DNA of 64,000 nucleotides from Pseudoramibacter sp. (GCF_022484225.1 NZ_JAKVLT010000001.1:558001-622000), one strand, 5' to 3'. Positions 18,750 through 27,385 are shown, counted from the first letter of the stretch. A program made the numbers and translations. Notes: generated by a model not told the origin, from the letters alone.

Positions 18750-19442
18750 TCATTCATTCAAAAGATTCCTTAAGTTTTCTCCGATATCACCTGTCAGGGC
18801 TACTGTCCTGTCTGCCAGCGCATCCGGAACGTTGATTTCTCCCGGCATATTCATCGTAATGAACTTCCAGGAAGGATATTCCGCTGCCATTCCCATCGTC
18901 GGGGCTTTGATCAGCTGGTTCCGGCTCCCAATGCCAAGCTCAAAGAGCAGAGCATTCTGCCCGGAATACTCCTGAAGGAATGCGTAAAATCTCTGCCGCT
19001 GGCCGTTCCACTCCTCAGACCCCTCCGTAAGGCCTTCGAAGTTACCTTCCACTTCGAAGATTCTGTCCCGGTCAAAACCATTCATCTGAAAATGCGCGTC
19101 GCCGTTACTGGTCACGATAAAATATGGTTTATTCCTGACAATTGAAAGCAGGTTTTTCATTACCTCACTGCCATGGTAGTCGTCAATTAAATACTGATGA
19201 ACCGTCTGCATATATTCCTCATGATCGGCCGCCGTCATCGGCGTGAACACACCGCGGATCAGGCAGTCTGCGCCGTACTTCTGACGGAACTTCCCAAAGT
19301 ACCTTCTGAACGACCCATTATCCGCAAAAATATGATACCCCTCTGCGATGGAAAGCCCGTTGCTCGCCGTAATCAGAATGGCGTCCGTGTTTTTTAGCCA
19401 GTCTTTTGCCTCTTTATAATCGTTTACTTTATATTCCATCAT
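18750..19442 (-). CDS. sirtuin-like (SIR2) protein lacking catalytic His and zinc module
   Basis: 230 residues. The NAD-binding opening (AILITASNGLSIAEGYHIF) and the later Rossmann elements (IVTSNGDAHF, LFELGIGSRN, ITMNMP, ALTGDIGENL) line up with the larger sirtuin next door. Where that protein has the catalytic His and the zinc cysteines, this one reads EVEGNFEGLTEGSEEW, with no His and no CxxC pairs. It is therefore probably not a deacylase and may act as an NAD or ADP-ribose binding partner. It starts 10 bases after the larger sirtuin gene. Confidence 0.75.
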   Translation of the reverse strand: MMEYKVNDYKEAKDWLKNTDAILITASNGLSIAEGYHIFADNGSFRRYFGKFRQKYGADCLIRGVFTPMTAADHEEYMQTVHQYLIDDYHGSEVMKNLLSIVRNKPYFIVTSNGDAHFQMNGFDRDRIFEVEGNFEGLTEGSEEWNGQRQRFYAFLQEYSGQNALLFELGIGSRNQLIKAPTMGMAAEYPSWKFITMNMPGEINVPDALADRTVALTGDIGENLRNLLNE

Positions 19443-19452
19443 TTTTCACCCT

Positions 19453-20442
19453 CTACGATCGTACAGCTGTGACTTTCTTCTCCATTTCACTTCTTACATC
19501 CTCCAGCACTTTCCCAATATCGGCCTGGATAGCCAGTCCCCTGTCTTCAATTGCCTCCGGCAGGAACGCATAATCCTTGTTCACAGAAATATACGTCGTC
19601 TGTGGCAAACTGTTCACCAGTGCCCAGAACGGCTCCTGGATGAACATCGGTGTGAGTCTTCCGACGCCGAGTTCCAGGAAAAGAATCTTCTCGTCCTTAT
19701 GCGCGAGAATGTAATCTGATATCTTCTGATATTCCTCTTCGTATTTCTTACCGGTCAGGAAATTTCCATAACCCCGGACCCACGGAAACATCTCAGCGCC
19801 GCAGTGCGGGCAGTGCGGGATCAGTTCCTTCGGCACTGCCGTGCCCTCACCCATGGCATCGATCATCTCCTGCACCGGTTTCACGGCATCCCATACCTCA
19901 TCCGTGCAGCACCTGGAGCACTGGAAGAAGCGATGGTCGCCCTGAATCTGGGCGACTTTAGACTCCGGATACAGCTTTACGAACTGCGTGTCCTGATTTG
20001 TGGTCAGTACAAAGAATTCTTTATCCGCGAGGACCGCATCCAAATCCAGGTACGGCTTCCGAACCTCCGCATGCTGGGTGGTATGCAGGAATGTTGCCAT
20101 ATATCCCCAGAACTCCTCACGGGAATCCCAGTGGGCAAACGCACCGGAAAAAGCACCTTTGAATCCGTATTTCTCCGCATACTTTCCGAAATATTTCCGG
20201 TAGGAGGCGTTGTCTTCATAATAGAAATCCCCGCCGCCTGCCGCGGAAAGGCCGGATGCCCCTCCGACGATCACACAGTCTGCGTCCTTCACTTTCTGAA
20301 CAAAATCCTGAATCTGCTCTTCATAAGGGAGCGGCTCTTTCTTTGTCAGCGGAACCACAGTTCTGCCGGATGCATATGCGTTGTAATATCTGGAATAATT
20401 GCTCATCTGTACTTCATTTACAATCTGCTCATAAAAGGTCAT
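19453..20442 (-). CDS. SIR2 family NAD-dependent deacylase/ADP-ribosyltransferase
   Basis: 329 residues. An N-terminal helical extension (1-45) is followed by the NAD-binding motif VIVGGASGLSAAGGGDF (a variant of GAGxSxxSGI), TTNQDTQF (TQNxD-like), the catalytic His in GDHRFFQC and a zinc ribbon CSRC...CPHC. A C-terminal Rossmann part (FLELGVGRLTP, ISVNKD) completes the fold. This branch is distant from CobB and closer to the sirtuins linked to ADP-ribosylation. It leads an operon with its degenerate paralogue and the radical SAM pair, and is divergent from a TetR regulator. Confidence 0.82.
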   Translation of the reverse strand: MTFYEQIVNEVQMSNYSRYYNAYASGRTVVPLTKKEPLPYEEQIQDFVQKVKDADCVIVGGASGLSAAGGGDFYYEDNASYRKYFGKYAEKYGFKGAFSGAFAHWDSREEFWGYMATFLHTTQHAEVRKPYLDLDAVLADKEFFVLTTNQDTQFVKLYPESKVAQIQGDHRFFQCSRCCTDEVWDAVKPVQEMIDAMGEGTAVPKELIPHCPHCGAEMFPWVRGYGNFLTGKKYEEEYQKISDYILAHKDEKILFLELGVGRLTPMFIQEPFWALVNSLPQTTYISVNKDYAFLPEAIEDRGLAIQADIGKVLEDVRSEMEKKVTAVRS

Positions 20443-20604: not shown

Positions 20605-20658
20605 TTCTCATGATCGGGAATATTCGATTGCAGATATCAGAGAAAGACGGTGAATAAA

Positions 20659-21255
20659 ATGAAGTCACCAAATCAGAAAAAGACTGACCGAAGAACGTTA
20701 TACACACAGATGGTCATCAAAGACGCGCTTCTAGAACTGAATAAAGAGACCGCCTATGACAAGATCAATGTCACCATGGTCTGCAGGCAGGCTGAGATTG
20801 CCCGTTCTACCTTTTACCTGCATTTTGACAGCCTGGATGAAGTACTGGACAGTGTCATCGATGACGCCCTCCTCTTTTCAGAGAGCGGCTCCGGAACGGT
20901 TGTTGATGTACTCGATATTATCCGCAGCGGCAGGTCAGATGTGCTCAGTAAGAATGAAACCGTCCTGCCCGCCTGCCAGCGGATCGCTGATTCTGATAAA
21001 TATCATCACTTGTTTATGGACGTATCTGTCAGCGACCATATCATCCAGAGGATTGCCGCTCATGAGCATGATAAAGTTGTCCCGGATCTTATGGCGCATA
21101 CCGGCCTCGCCGCAGATGAAGCCGAGATGCTTTTTAAGTTCATCCTTAACGGATCTTTCGCTGTAAACAGGAGCCTTAGCTGGGAGAAAAATGAACGATG
21201 GTACCGGTACCAGCAGATCCTTGGCAGATTTATTAATGCTGGGATAGAGAGATAA
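20659..21255 (+). CDS. TetR/AcrR family transcriptional regulator
   Basis: 198 residues from ATG 20659 (GTG 20650 is possible; ribosome site weak). The N-terminal helix-turn-helix runs from about 12 to 58: IKDALLELNKETAYDKINVT, then RQAEIARSTFYLHFDSLDEV. The C-terminal ligand domain is helical. It is divergent from the sirtuin operon and shares a spacer of about 215 bases with an inverted repeat, so it most likely represses that operon and perhaps itself. Lysine-rich start MKSPNQKKTDRRT. Confidence 0.88.
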   Translation: MKSPNQKKTDRRTLYTQMVIKDALLELNKETAYDKINVTMVCRQAEIARSTFYLHFDSLDEVLDSVIDDALLFSESGSGTVVDVLDIIRSGRSDVLSKNETVLPACQRIADSDKYHHLFMDVSVSDHIIQRIAAHEHDKVVPDLMAHTGLAADEAEMLFKFILNGSFAVNRSLSWEKNERWYRYQQILGRFINAGIER

Positions 21256-21454: not shown

Positions 21455-21739
21455 TTACAGTCCTGACAGTTTTATCCTGTCATATGCTCCATTTTTAGTA
21501 TTCTCAGGATGAGGCTCAAGACCAATGATCGTTATCTCCTGACGATCTGCTTCATAAACCCAATACATTCTCCTTGCCCCACTTTTATTGTTTTCCAGAT
21601 AGGACTGCCAGACCTTCATTCCGTAGCGTCTTGATAAATCCTCTATTTCATGAGATCTAAGACTGGGATACATAGGATCCTCTGACAATTTCTTTAATAC
21701 ATTACCCCATTTCTTATACAGCTCCCTATCCTTCCTTTT
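21455..21739 (-). pseudogene. RelE/ParE-like toxin remnant without N-terminus
   Basis: The reading frame ELYKKWGNVLKKLSEDPMYP, then SLRSHEIEDLSRRYGMKVWQ and VYEADRQEITIIGLEPHPEN, resembles the C-terminal two thirds of a RelE-type mRNA interferase. An in-frame TAG at 21740-21742 and the lack of a start codon with a ribosome site mean the front is lost; only a TTG at 21688 could start a 77-residue piece. No antitoxin gene is seen beside it. A working short protein cannot be excluded. Confidence 0.6.
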
Positions 21740-21882
21740 CTATTCCCGCTCATATTGCGTTCCCACAGTCTCAACTTCCGAAAAATAGCCTTCCAATAGT
21801 CTCGACCCCCCAAAAAATAGCAAAACCGCAGTCTCGCCAGAGCAATATCCTCATTTTCCCGGACAGAAAAAGCGGCACCCAC

Positions 21883-22230
21883 CTACTCAACTTGCGTAAT
21901 TGCCGCTCTAAGCTTAAGCAAATCATCATAGAAGCTGGTATGCGTAGCTATATCGGCACTTTGGTTTCTAATCTCAATATCTATATCTTCAACCAGCTTT
22001 GAATTTTGGCCTACGTTATCGACCACGTAATCCTTTACTTCTGTAAGGTGCTCTTTTAATTTGTCCTTACTCGGCTGTTTTTCTTTAATATTGAATTCAT
22101 CAGTTATTTCAAACAGCCCCTTGATGAACTCTTGCAGTTCAGTGATATTCTCTATTTCAGGCTTAAACTCGTATGAGTTGTCTCCCCTCAAAAGCATTTC
22201 TATATAATGTCTATTCTTCTGAGCTATCAA
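21883..22230 (-). CDS. hypothetical protein, last intact gene of the nuclease operon
   Basis: 115 residues from TTG 22230, chosen because GAGGAGG lies 9 bases upstream and the previous stop is at 22235; an ATG at 22257 would overlap that gene. The protein is acidic and mostly helical (ITELQEFIKGLFEITDEF, then DKLKEHLTEVKDYVVDNVGQ). I recognise no family. Its close packing suggests it belongs to the same system as the upstream nuclease genes. Confidence 0.6.
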   Translation of the reverse strand: MIAQKNRHYIEMLLRGDNSYEFKPEIENITELQEFIKGLFEITDEFNIKEKQPSKDKLKEHLTEVKDYVVDNVGQNSKLVEDIDIEIRNQSADIATHTSFYDDLLKLRAAITQVE

Positions 22231-22234
22231 GAAA

Positions 22235-22665
22235 TCATTCCTCCTCGTCATAATCATCAGATGTCAGCAATACCGCTGGCGTATACTCCGTTTCAGGCAC
22301 AATGGATTTTATTACAGAAAACAGCTCTTTGAACTCATCGCCCGGAACCCAGTATGTTTCTTTAAACTTCGTCTTGTCAGAGTACGTGATATTAAACTCA
22401 ATACCACCTATATCTGTACAAAACTCTTCGATGTTCCTTTGTATTGCTTCTTCAACCTTCTTAGCTATTTCGGAATACTTCACCTTAAAGATCGGGCTGC
22501 TTGTTTTATAACTCCATTTCCTCTTAGGGTTATCTCAGACTCCACATACGGAATGTATTCATATGAAATTGAATCTTCTGTGATTGTGACCTTGTCATTA
22601 AAAGCCTCATCAACACAACAATAGCCTGACGAGCCTTTTATCACTATTCGATTAATATCAGGCAT
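22235..22665 (-). pseudogene. hypothetical protein split by one frameshift
   Basis: The first frame (MPDINRIVIKGSSGYCCVDE...) stops near 22480. The next frame carries on seamlessly with WSYKTSSPIFKVKYSEIAKK and ends LLTSDDYDEEE at 22235. One extra A in the A-run at 22517-22519 would join the two into one protein of about 143 residues. Its function is unknown; the acidic tail and mixed alpha/beta make-up are all that can be seen. It lies 31 bases after the PD-(D/E)XK gene. A homopolymer error is the simplest alternative to a real mutation. Confidence 0.65.
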
Positions 22666-22696
22666 ATTATCTCCTCCAAATCACAGCATTTTCTTA

Positions 22697-23710
22697 TTAA
22701 GTCCAGGTCTCTTCCGTCAATCGACGAGCCAGTTCTTCTGTTTCTGGGATGTCTTCTGTTCCCAGCACCTGAGTCAAATCAAATATTCTGGTTCCCATTG
22801 GCGCCCTCGGTGTTATCTTCTTAAAGTCCGTCTCATAGAACTTATCAACAAAGAAGTACCTATGCTCAATACTCCTTAAATCATAACCATGAGAGTCGCC
22901 GTCCGCCATTGCCTTTGCAATGGTCTCTTTTCTCTCATCAGTGAGATCACCGAATTCAGGATTATATTTCACGCCATCTTCTGTCTCAACTGCTGTAATG
23001 CGAGCAATGACCTTTCCTACAGCACGCACGCTTTTATTCTTATAAAGTCCCAAGAAGTCATGTGCTCTAAAACCACGCTCTGCCTTATCATAGTATACGC
23101 CAGCAGAAACATTGAAATTCAATGTTGTCCCAGCGAGCTGCATTCTCAGATATTTCCAAGAATCCGATACAGGAATAAGTCCGTCCGTATAACAGTAGTT
23201 AAGATAGTCGCTCAAAACGTCCTGCATTTCATAATCTCTATCATCAAGGATATCACTAATAGCGTTGGCCATATCCTCAAATGTTGTATTTATATGAATA
23301 ACCGGATGTGTTTGCTTTTCATTGTAGGCTTTGAGCTTTTCTTCGAACTCAGCCTTTTTCCCTTCTTCCATGAGCTCCGGGGCCAAAGTGATCATGACCT
23401 TATACTTCTCGTCGCTGAACGAATTCAGATGACGGAGTAGCTGATCCTCATAAAACCGGTCAGACATTTTGGTCTCAACCACTATCTTAAAGCTCTCCTG
23501 TGTAATAGTTGCGTCCGGAATACTATCAACGCTTTTCTCCTGCAACGTGAAGATTATTTCTGGATTGAAGGAATCAGAGAAATACTCCGATTTCAAAAAC
23601 CTAAAGAACTTGTCCGATGAGTATGAATATAAGCGCGATAACAGCAACATGGTGTTCGCTGTAGCAACGTTTTCTTTCTCATGGTATCTCTGAAAGTAAT
23701 GTATCTGCAT
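22697..23710 (-). CDS. PD-(D/E)XK nuclease family protein
   Basis: 337 residues. The nuclease core is at residues 65-81: Pro-Asp in SIPDATIT, a spacer, then VVETK as the (D/E)xK motif; RFYEDQLLRHL follows as the usual helix. The remaining 200 residues form an unrecognised C-terminal domain. GGAGGAG lies 5 bases before the ATG. It starts 18 bases after the large P-loop protein gene, so the two are probably partners, with this one cutting DNA or RNA. Confidence 0.78.
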   Translation of the reverse strand: MQIHYFQRYHEKENVATANTMLLLSRLYSYSSDKFFRFLKSEYFSDSFNPEIIFTLQEKSVDSIPDATITQESFKIVVETKMSDRFYEDQLLRHLNSFSDEKYKVMITLAPELMEEGKKAEFEEKLKAYNEKQTHPVIHINTTFEDMANAISDILDDRDYEMQDVLSDYLNYCYTDGLIPVSDSWKYLRMQLAGTTLNFNVSAGVYYDKAERGFRAHDFLGLYKNKSVRAVGKVIARITAVETEDGVKYNPEFGDLTDERKETIAKAMADGDSHGYDLRSIEHRYFFVDKFYETDFKKITPRAPMGTRIFDLTQVLGTEDIPETEELARRLTEETWT

Positions 23711-23727
23711 ATCGCTCCTCCGACAAA

Positions 23728-25725
23728 TTATAGTTCATCCATTCCCATATCAACAAAATACTGATATGTCTCATCCAGCATCGAATCCCTCGGAATTAGT
23801 ATGATCATTTCTTTACGGGCTCTGGTCAAAAGAACCCTAAAGTTATTCTCTACGATAGAGTCCGTATCCAGATAATTCTGTGACCTTACGTCGTAATCAT
23901 ATCTTGAGCCCCTGGCTACCCACTGTCCATTCTGACGGATATAGCCACCACCAAATACAACGATAGGGCAATCCAGCTCTAATCCCTGATTACCATATAC
24001 CGAACAGGCCTTTTCAAGCTCTCGACATTTTTCTGCAAACCAAGGGCCATACTCTCCGTTCTGTACCATATTTGCAGCCGGTCGATACTTGGATCCTTTA
24101 ATAACCCATCCCGGCATTGCTTTTTTAATTACATCCTGCTCAGCAAAGTTCGATATGAGCATTCCATATTTCCATTCAGGATGATCTTTATCGATCTCCT
24201 CAGCTCTTTCCCGAACCTTTGCAAAGTCTCTGGATACACAAATTCGCATTGAGGTATTCTGTAATTCTTCTAGTTCTTTCTTAGCCTGCGCCGCCGTAGC
24301 ATGGCTCCTGCAAATCGCCTGCTCTACCCACTTACTGCAGTCAATAAAATCTGCTCTTAGTGAAACCGGCAGAAATACATCATTGTCGACAATCTTTCTA
24401 TCATCAAGACCATGCAGATTATTGGCAAGCTCCTCGGCTGCGATTACAATCCAATCGTCGTGCTCTTTAAGCGCATCTTCCCACAACGAAATGACAGCCT
24501 CTTCTCCTGTATAAATAACCTGACCGTTACCATACAAGCCGATTAAAACAGCATAGTCTCTTTCTTCAAATATTCTCTCACCGACCCGGAATAGGCCTTC
24601 CGGCTCAGTAAAACCTTTCCCCAGCTTCTCTGCGTCCCAAGCTCTCTGTGCTTCATCAAAAATAAGAATAGACTGCTCTGGCACCTTTGTATCTTTATAA
24701 AAGAAGGTAGACTTAAACTCCTTCATGCCCTGGATAGCATTTTCACCCATGTGCTCGTTATTACCAACCTGGTTGATCTGATACTGAAGGACTTCTACAA
24801 GCGGCCCATTACCAGAAAGGTATACAGCATTAGCCTCGCAGTTCTTATTTTCTTCATATACAATACTCTGTCCGACAGCAGTTTTGCCGGCTCCAGGAAC
24901 GCCATTAATAAGAATAAGAATCTTCTTGTTGTTCTCCCTGGCATCATCAATATAACCGAGCACCTTATCCAAGCACGTCCTGTTAACATCAGAAATGTAC
25001 GGAATTCTTCCTTCGCGGTACATAATTTCGATAGCCTGAAGCATATCCGGCATTTCTGTTTTTGATGAAGATAGCCACGCATCCTGGAATGAGCACTGAG
25101 ACTCTCCGCTTAATTCCTGCTTAATCACATCACAGAAATTGTCTTCCGTAAGGATATCTATTCCTCTAAGACTTCCGGTTGCAGCATTCTTATGCGTGCA
25201 GACAAGATAGCTTTTTACTTCAAGAGCCCTGTCTTTCGTTTCTTTGTAGTGATTCTGCAACCACTCCTTGTATCGGATAGCCTGAGCCACATCGTCCTTA
25301 TTGGAATCAATCTGCGGAGCGTCCTTCTTCTTAAACTCAAGCGAAATTGCCTTACTGTTTGTAAGCAAGAAAACATCAGGCCTTTCATGTACAGTTCCAG
25401 GAAGGCTATATTCGAAAATCAACTCATATTCTTGATCTGTTGCCGCTAACCCAGTAAGGGTTCTGGCTATGAATTTAAAGCAATTCATCCATACAGATTC
25501 CTGGCTCCTATTTACAGCATTACCCGCATGGTCCGAATTATCCTCAGTCATCACAGCATTAACATATGACTTTAGTTCTTTTTCCCACACATCGAGCTGA
25601 GTCTTATCCGCACTGATGATATCCTTAATCTTTACCTTTAATGCATAATCCTTTGGAGGAGTTTTTCTTACCCTCCGGGTTATTGTTTTTTCTTCAAGTT
25701 CAAAACTCCTCTCTCTACGGTGCAT
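23728..25725 (-). CDS. DUF2075-type P-loop ATPase/helicase with N-terminal PD-(D/E)XK-like domain
   Basis: 665 residues. Residues 80-180 look like a restriction-type nuclease domain, with Pro-Asp at 116-117 and EFKKK at 130-134. The P-loop domain follows: Walker A GVPGAGKT (275-282), Walker B LIFDEAQRAWD (about 352-362), a later superfamily I-like motif LLTRARKEMIILIP near the end. Schlafen-like and DUF2075 proteins share this core. The start is uncertain; ATG 25725 is the longest. Together with the adjacent nuclease it resembles a defence cassette. AT-rich compared with the core genome. Confidence 0.78.
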   Translation of the reverse strand: MHRRERSFELEEKTITRRVRKTPPKDYALKVKIKDIISADKTQLDVWEKELKSYVNAVMTEDNSDHAGNAVNRSQESVWMNCFKFIARTLTGLAATDQEYELIFEYSLPGTVHERPDVFLLTNSKAISLEFKKKDAPQIDSNKDDVAQAIRYKEWLQNHYKETKDRALEVKSYLVCTHKNAATGSLRGIDILTEDNFCDVIKQELSGESQCSFQDAWLSSSKTEMPDMLQAIEIMYREGRIPYISDVNRTCLDKVLGYIDDARENNKKILILINGVPGAGKTAVGQSIVYEENKNCEANAVYLSGNGPLVEVLQYQINQVGNNEHMGENAIQGMKEFKSTFFYKDTKVPEQSILIFDEAQRAWDAEKLGKGFTEPEGLFRVGERIFEERDYAVLIGLYGNGQVIYTGEEAVISLWEDALKEHDDWIVIAAEELANNLHGLDDRKIVDNDVFLPVSLRADFIDCSKWVEQAICRSHATAAQAKKELEELQNTSMRICVSRDFAKVRERAEEIDKDHPEWKYGMLISNFAEQDVIKKAMPGWVIKGSKYRPAANMVQNGEYGPWFAEKCRELEKACSVYGNQGLELDCPIVVFGGGYIRQNGQWVARGSRYDYDVRSQNYLDTDSIVENNFRVLLTRARKEMIILIPRDSMLDETYQYFVDMGMDEL

Positions 25726-25993: not shown

Positions 25994-27385
25994 TTACTCT
26001 TTATATGTGTTCACCTTTGACAGCAAAACTACCGTCTCGACATGCGGCGTCTGCGGAAACATGTCAACGCACTGGACGGTTTCAACGGTATAGCCGGCGC
26101 GGACGAAGTAGGGCAGATCCCGGGCAAGGGAACGGGCTTTGCACGACACGTAGACAAAGACTTTCGGCGCCATGGCCACCACATCGTGGAGGGCCTTCGG
26201 GCTCACGCCGTCTCTCGGCGGGTCGAGGACGATGACGTCCGGGGTTTCAGTGAGCTTTTCCGCTTCGGTCTTCACGTCTCCGGCGATGAACCAGCAGTTG
26301 GTGAGCCCATTGGCTGCCGCGTTGGTCTTGGCGGCTTCGACCGCTTCGGGGATCATTTCGATGCCCACTACCTTTTTGGCCAGCGGGGACAAAATCTGGC
26401 CGATGGTGCCAACGCCGCAGTACAAATCAAACAGCACAGGCTTTTTCGCCATCCCGGCCGTTCCCTGGCGGACGGCGTCGCGCACGGCGGTGTACAGCAC
26501 TTCGGCGCCCCGGGTGTTGGTCTGGAGGAAAGAGAACGGCGTGATTTCAAAATCGACGTCTAAAATCCTGTCGTGGATGACGCCGTCGCCGAAAAGGATT
26601 TTCATAGACTCCGCCTTGGCCACGTCAGCGACGCTGTCGTCGAGGCTGTGAATCACCGTCGTGAGCTGGCCCTCTAAATCAAGGCTCTGCAGCATGTGCA
26701 GATAACCGGCTTCGTCGATGTCCCCCTGGGTCGACGTAATGAGGTTCACGAGGATTTCCCCGGTGGCGTCGCCCCGGCGCACGACGAGGTAGCGCAGGAT
26801 GCCTTCGTGGCTGCGCTTGTGGTAATAGGGCACCCCTTCGAAAAAGCGGCGGGTGCCGGAGACGATTTTGCCGAAATCCGGATGGGCCAGGGCGCAGGCG
26901 TCAGCATTGAGAATATTGTAGAAGTGGCCCTTTTCGTGAAAGCCCAGGGTCAGCGGCCCGCCGAGTTCCGCATCCCCAAAGGAAAATTCCATCTTATTGC
27001 GGTAGTGGAGGGTCTGGGGGCTTTCGAGCGCCGGCAGGTGGGTGAAGTCTGTGATGCCCGCATCTTTGAGCAAATCCATAACCCAGCGGTCTTTGACTTC
27101 GAGCAGGGTTTCCGGCGCCAGATTCTGGTAGGTGCAGCCGCCGCAACGGCCAAACACCGGGCACACCGGCGTCCGGGCGTCGGGCGCTTCAGACAAAACT
27201 TCTAAGCACTGCCCTTCAGCCTTGCCCCGGCGCTTCTTTTTAATCCGCACCCGAAGGGTCTGTCCCGTCACCGCGCCCTTGACGCTGCACGGAATCTGGC
27301 CGTCACCGTTGGGAATCCAGCCGACCCCTTTACCCGGGTACACCATCTTTTCTATTTTCAAATCGACGCAGTCGCCTTTTTTCAT
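25994..27385 (-). CDS. rlmD: 23S rRNA (uracil-5-)-methyltransferase, RlmD/TrmA family
   Basis: 463 residues. An N-terminal TRAM domain (1-60, MVYPGKGVGWI) is followed by the iron-sulfur cysteines CPVFGRCGGC (about 75-84) with a further Cys upstream in the fold. The SAM-binding motif is LFDLYCGVGTIG, then LDPPRDGVS and the catalytic Cys in YVSCKARSLARDL. The enzyme makes m5U in 23S rRNA; which uridine (747 or 1939) cannot be told in Gram-positives, where RlmCD does both. AAAGGAG precedes the ATG. Confidence 0.9.
   Translation of the reverse strand: MKKGDCVDLKIEKMVYPGKGVGWIPNGDGQIPCSVKGAVTGQTLRVRIKKKRRGKAEGQCLEVLSEAPDARTPVCPVFGRCGGCTYQNLAPETLLEVKDRWVMDLLKDAGITDFTHLPALESPQTLHYRNKMEFSFGDAELGGPLTLGFHEKGHFYNILNADACALAHPDFGKIVSGTRRFFEGVPYYHKRSHEGILRYLVVRRGDATGEILVNLITSTQGDIDEAGYLHMLQSLDLEGQLTTVIHSLDDSVADVAKAESMKILFGDGVIHDRILDVDFEITPFSFLQTNTRGAEVLYTAVRDAVRQGTAGMAKKPVLFDLYCGVGTIGQILSPLAKKVVGIEMIPEAVEAAKTNAAANGLTNCWFIAGDVKTEAEKLTETPDVIVLDPPRDGVSPKALHDVVAMAPKVFVYVSCKARSLARDLPYFVRAGYTVETVQCVDMFPQTPHVETVVLLSKVNTYKE

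Follow-up and report, generated by a model that had tools for sequence, protein, structure and literature searches.

Gene content of the island

The region under study lies in a window of 64,000 nucleotides (NZ_JAKVLT010000001.1:558001-622000), the whole stretch of DNA analysed here, which is located inside the 1.97 Mb, single-contig genome of Pseudoramibacter sp. Five open reading frames, P1 to P5, and the remnant P6 are found between rlmD and a TetR-like gene (20650-21255, plus strand), all of them on the minus strand (Table 1). As called, the five ORFs encode proteins of 665, 337, 61, 82 and 124 amino acids and are followed by the remnant P6, with a gap of 17 bp between P1 and P2 and of 31 bp between P2 and P3. 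An almost identical island is present in a close congener, the metagenome-assembled genome "uncultured Eubacteriaceae" (L002, the same contig as G775/L061; hereafter the sister MAG), where the P1-P2 pair is 99-100% identical.

Table 1. Features of the island and its insertion site (positions in the window).
Feature	Position	Strand	Remarks
rlmD/rumA, 23S rRNA uracil methyltransferase	25994..27385	-	3' end is the insertion site; identity by sequence reading
Left att-like site, rlmD 3' end, GAGACGGTAGTTTTGCT	26017..26040	-	Similar copies in L061, L036 and L026
P1, 665 aa, RecB-like PD-(D/E)XK (about 70-180) and Schlafen-group-3 SF1 helicase (about 230-665), predicted	23728..25725	-	PF09848, PDC-S41; start codon uncertain
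P2, 337 aa, putative N-terminal PD-(D/E)XK domain; C-terminal domain possibly of PUA/ASCH/YTH type	22697..23710	-	Invariant motif, BFVD match, fold comparison
P3+P4, single frameshifted gene	22235..22665	-	Both pieces match an intact 147-aa protein (L041:7800-8243)
P5, likely coiled-coil, orphan	21883..22230	-	About 115 aa from TTG 22230; 124 aa from ATG 22257
P6, leftover C-terminus of a protein of 124 aa, member of a toxin-antitoxin-like pair	21455..21720	-	About 70% DNA identity to a Lactobacillus helsingborgensis plasmid gene

The first-pass annotation had described several same-strand genes with small gaps, among them two small proteins of 61 and 82 aa. The common strand and the short spacing were borne out, but the two small proteins proved to be one gene read in two frames, since both pieces match the single intact homologue, which is encoded on a viral contig. 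The frameshift is identical in the sister MAG. Relatives of P3/P4 were found on two viral contigs only, and none in the 391 genomes of the class sample, the 269 genomes of the phylum sample, plasmids or phages. P5 probably starts at the TTG codon, which is preceded by a GAGGAGG site; its profile matches are weak and of the coiled-coil type only, and no relatives were detected in viral contigs or plasmids. What is left of P6 corresponds to the last two thirds of the Lactobacillus plasmid protein, whose intact gene directly follows an 80-codon ORF; P6 therefore resembles the end of a gene of the toxin-antitoxin type. Its earlier designation as a broken RelE-like toxin is not backed by any profile match to RelE.

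A well-formed promoter had been reported upstream of P1 as well. Promoter-like hexamers (TTGCCA-17-TAGAAT) do occur at 25819-25791, yet 11 such sites were found in the region against 10.9 expected from shuffled sequence. The promoter was therefore dropped as an argument for a single operon.

Insertion site at the rlmD/rumA 3' end

Homology to three congeners breaks off at 26017-26036, within the 3' end of rlmD, which marks the start of the island. Between the window and the sister MAG, 115 positions differ in the final 500 bp of rlmD, as compared with 0-51 differences per 500 bp elsewhere, and the GC content is 0.56-0.61 towards rlmD but 0.39-0.44 in the island. The sister MAG carries a second rlmD-like end (terminating in GHVETVALLTRTN and a stop) just past P5, where its island ends on the right; that island is thus flanked by two rumA 3'-end-like sites (L061:5575 and L061:9181). 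Allowing up to 4 mismatches, three copies of the rlmD end were counted in L061 versus 0.2 in shuffled sequences. Similar copies were also detected in a prophage bearing a P2 homologue (L036:3825) and beside a relative of P1 (L026:15008). The window itself retains the left site and has no right att-like copy.

In streptococci, rumA is a documented target of the serine integrases of integrative and conjugative elements (ICEs), the integration of which is accompanied by exchange of the gene's 3' end (PMC4701971). The island described here shares with these ICEs both the target gene family and the 3' end exchange (PMC4701971), but differs from them in that no integrase remains in the genome. The serine recombinase profile PF07508 finds no match anywhere in the genome; the island must accordingly be either cargo or a remnant and not an active element. 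Integration at a tRNA site was considered as well and rejected, there being no tRNA in the window.

The same site is occupied by other genes in related genomes. In congener G776 it holds a kinase-like gene together with unknown genes and what remains of a serine recombinase (L063:6925-13413, by sequence reading), which represent another cargo set at this hotspot; in congener G777 a Fic-like gene was recognized in the same way. Two adjacent SIR2-like proteins of 230 and 329 aa (18750-20442, minus strand), likewise assigned by reading the sequence, adjoin the island in the window, and SIR2-like genes are also present near the rlmD site of G776 and G777 (L063 and L062).

The two putative nuclease genes

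The product of P1, which looks intact in the window, had been described as a nuclease-like domain joined to a DUF2075-type motor, and this description was confirmed. The helicase part matches the Pfam family SLFN-g3_helicase (PF09848, formerly DUF2075) with an E-value of 5.8e-45 and 154.5 bits against a curated cut-off of 24, and its Walker A, DEAQR and LTRAR motifs are conserved among relatives, the first two being invariant. In an alignment with ten relatives, residues E105, D117, E130-x-K132 and Q148xxxY152 of the N-terminal part are also invariant; since these are the signature of RecB-like PD-(D/E)XK nucleases, the domain is assigned to this group. The structural model agrees with the assignment, as it shows the helix-strand-strand-strand-helix-strand order expected for the core, so that catalytic motif and alpha-beta-beta-beta-alpha-beta core are both present. 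E130/K132 and the Walker A motif, named earlier as targets for mutation, are accordingly among the invariant positions.

In fold comparisons, the modelled helicase is similar to human SLFN11 and SLFN14 (Z 13-16) and to UvrD (Z 16-18). P1 therefore shares its helicase domain with the Schlafen group 3 proteins, while adding an N-terminal PD-(D/E)XK nuclease to it. A sequence search of the PDB with P1 revealed no relatives. Over residues 64-655, that is nearly its full length, P1 matches PDC-S41, a single-gene phage defence candidate of PADLOC (9.9e-77, 256.7 bits), although it is divergent, with 25-30% identity to most members. From its sequence, P1 is a predicted stand-alone helicase-nuclease and a new member of this already catalogued candidate family, for which a literature search found no experiment or paper on phage protection. 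A nuclease and a helicase are also combined in one protein in Nhi, a single-gene nuclease-helicase immunity system acting on DNA (PMC12904381). However, the match of P1 to the Nhi profile is limited to residues 266-364 near the P-loop (14.2 bits, E-value 0.0032), and membership in Nhi was rejected.

The closest relatives of P1, with 67-70% identity, are those of Acetatifactor and Ligilactobacillus animalis, the latter being split over three ORFs. In the sister MAG, P1 has lost its first 144 residues, the nuclease motif included. Four of the 22 P1-family loci have a small NUDIX gene, recognized by its Nudix box, close by: it directly adjoins the P1 relative in L003, L028 and L069 and is separated from it by one HNH gene in L064. 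Two loci have P1 relatives fused to an N-terminal FRWDP/KYRWNP stretch, and a third encodes this stretch upstream of the P1 relative (L003:5782-6579, L070:3774-5873 and L026:10752-11501); P1 of the window lacks it.

P2, which looks intact in the window too, had no match over the cut-off in four protein-family libraries: there was no family match in Pfam, including the EVE, ASCH and YTH families, in PADLOC or in NCBIfam, and nothing convincing in PHROGs (best E-value 0.039). A PDB sequence search found no relatives, and a profile comparison of the P1 and P2 nuclease domains gave nothing significant. The assignment to the PD-(D/E)XK group is suggested by the top match in BFVD, a viral protein bearing that name (8.9e-9; the next, an ASCH protein, reached 0.015), and by E13, P65-D66, E79-x-K81 and Q90, which are invariant among relatives down to 30% identity. 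The pair E79/K81, also named beforehand for mutation, is part of this invariant set.

For the C-terminal half of P2, the top 26 rows of the fold comparison were YTH/ASCH proteins; the best of them reached Z 7.2 (rmsd 3.8 A, 113 aligned residues), a value below 8, which may reflect merely a common arrangement, and was obtained with an AlphaFold model of modest confidence (mean pLDDT 64). These limits count against a base reader, as does the profile comparison (hhalign) of the C-terminus with ASCH proteins, which yielded nothing significant. The chance that this domain is a PUA/ASCH/YTH-like base reader is put slightly below even, and P2 is possibly a modification-dependent (type IV) restriction nuclease. 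Many modification-dependent endonucleases are known to combine a nuclease with a reader of the PUA superfamily (PMC7897488, PMC7641849); VcaM4I is a type IV enzyme of the EVE-HNH kind (PMC7897488), and EVE-PD(D/E)XK fusions have been predicted (PMC7641849). P2 would resemble these enzymes in joining a nuclease to a possible reader, and differs from them in having no Pfam match to a reader domain.

Distribution of P1 and P2 and origin of the gene set

The two genes were compared across 22 loci of the P1 family (L003, L004, L026-L028, L043 and L064-L079, the window pair excluded) and 16 loci with an intact P2-family gene (L020-L025, L032, L034-L040, L082 and L089, of which L022 and L037 are the same element). 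None of the 22 and none of the 16 hold both genes, which outside the window occur together in the sister MAG only; since the flanks covered differ in length and some contigs are short, pairs lying far apart or truncated by a contig end may have escaped notice, and the Acetatifactor contig ends inside P1, where the absence of P2 covers the upstream side only. At the DNA level, similarity to the P2 gene of L032 spans 23711-22695, which is the coding sequence within a few bases, and similarity to P1 of Ligilactobacillus animalis spans 25647-23726, ending at the stop codon. Because the similarity stops at the edges of the coding sequences, the cassettes appear to have been joined gene by gene.

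The first-pass annotation had proposed an undescribed defence operon working as a set, and had suggested a database search for the co-occurring genes; the search found them separately in other genomes, which that annotation itself had named as speaking against its proposal. A conserved P1-P2(-P5) system was rejected on the neighbourhoods of these 38 other loci. That P1 and P2 form a joint defence system of two or more genes, with P3-P5 as accessories, is very unlikely. The common strand and small gaps, the sharing of the pair by the sister species at 99-100% identity and the fact that P2 abuts another nuclease gene elsewhere, which makes pairing with a second nuclease a recurrent feature, would fit such a system, but the pair was seen in no other genome examined, the sister copy has no P1 nuclease domain, P3/P4 is broken in both genomes, and the upstream neighbours of P2 relatives are varied or missing. 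Since they are found apart in other bacteria, P1 and P2 are most likely two independent defences. The gene set had also been thought to match no system that could be named; P1 on its own was already listed as a candidate family.

A further reading, that the genes serve the housekeeping of mobile elements or competition between them rather than anti-phage defence, is considered improbable. P2 homologues on viral contigs adjoin serine-recombinase genes (recognized in the sequence), i.e. they occupy prophage cargo positions, and relatives of P1 lie in prophages beside lysis-type genes (L071-L077, again by sequence reading), both of which fit this reading. On the other hand, P1 matches the profile of a defence candidate, one of its relatives adjoins annotated McrBC and DNA methyltransferase genes on a plasmid, and prophage cargo slots frequently carry defence genes. 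Hence the earlier assignment to defence is supported for P1, while for P2 it is plausible only.

Of the two genes, P2 is of greater interest. In seven of the 16 loci (L022/L037, L034, L036, L038, L039 and L082), P2 abuts a PDDEXK_4-type gene, its start either overlapping that gene by 4 bp or lying no more than 2 bp behind it. The Pfam match of this gene has an E-value of 1.8e-27 in L082 and of 0.0043 for the shorter gene of L036. Found in prophage-like elements, the two genes represent a candidate two-nuclease module. Could P2 of the window, then, be a member of a two-gene module of other mobile elements that has lost its PDDEXK_4 partner and is probably idle? The close spacing in the seven loci and a decayed P2 beside the same type of gene in L031 favour this explanation. 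The remaining loci, however, have an unrelated upstream gene (without family match, methyltransferase, DUF4268 or macrodomain-like) or none, and the gene upstream of the 97%-identical P2 of L032, a viral contig on which P2 lies next to serine recombinases, is unrelated as well, so that the explanation is held to be rather unlikely. With similar reserve we suggest, as a tentative idea only, that P2 belongs to an uncatalogued family of modification-dependent nucleases, composed of a PD-(D/E)XK domain and a divergent PUA/YTH-like reader, which travels with serine-recombinase elements as cargo and frequently has a PDDEXK_4 protein as its partner in a two-nuclease system.

Taken as a whole, the locus is probably an att-site cargo island at the 3' end of rlmD/rumA with two independent modules, P1 and P2, rather than a multi-gene system. 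The genes would have been brought to this site singly by integrative elements and then decayed, P3/P4 and P6 being broken genes and P5 an orphan. As suggested by its domains, the SF1 Schlafen-type motor of P1 would engage invading DNA and pass it on to the protein's own RecB-like PD-(D/E)XK domain. The C-terminal domain of P2, possibly of the PUA/ASCH/YTH fold, might recognize a modified base in the DNA of a phage, whereupon the PD-(D/E)XK domain would cut the modified DNA, as in type IV restriction. The missing PF07508 recombinase and right att-like copy count against the cargo-island reading, as does the preserved 17 bp gap between P1 and P2, which may be co-transcribed.

The P2 family travels on prophage-like elements and recurs beside a PDDEXK_4-type gene, and it is this pair, rather than the gene set of the window, that constitutes a testable candidate defence module. 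More generally, a plausible "operon" seen in a single genome can consist of unrelated cargo piled up at an integration hotspot, in which DNA similarity to relatives stops at the gene edges.
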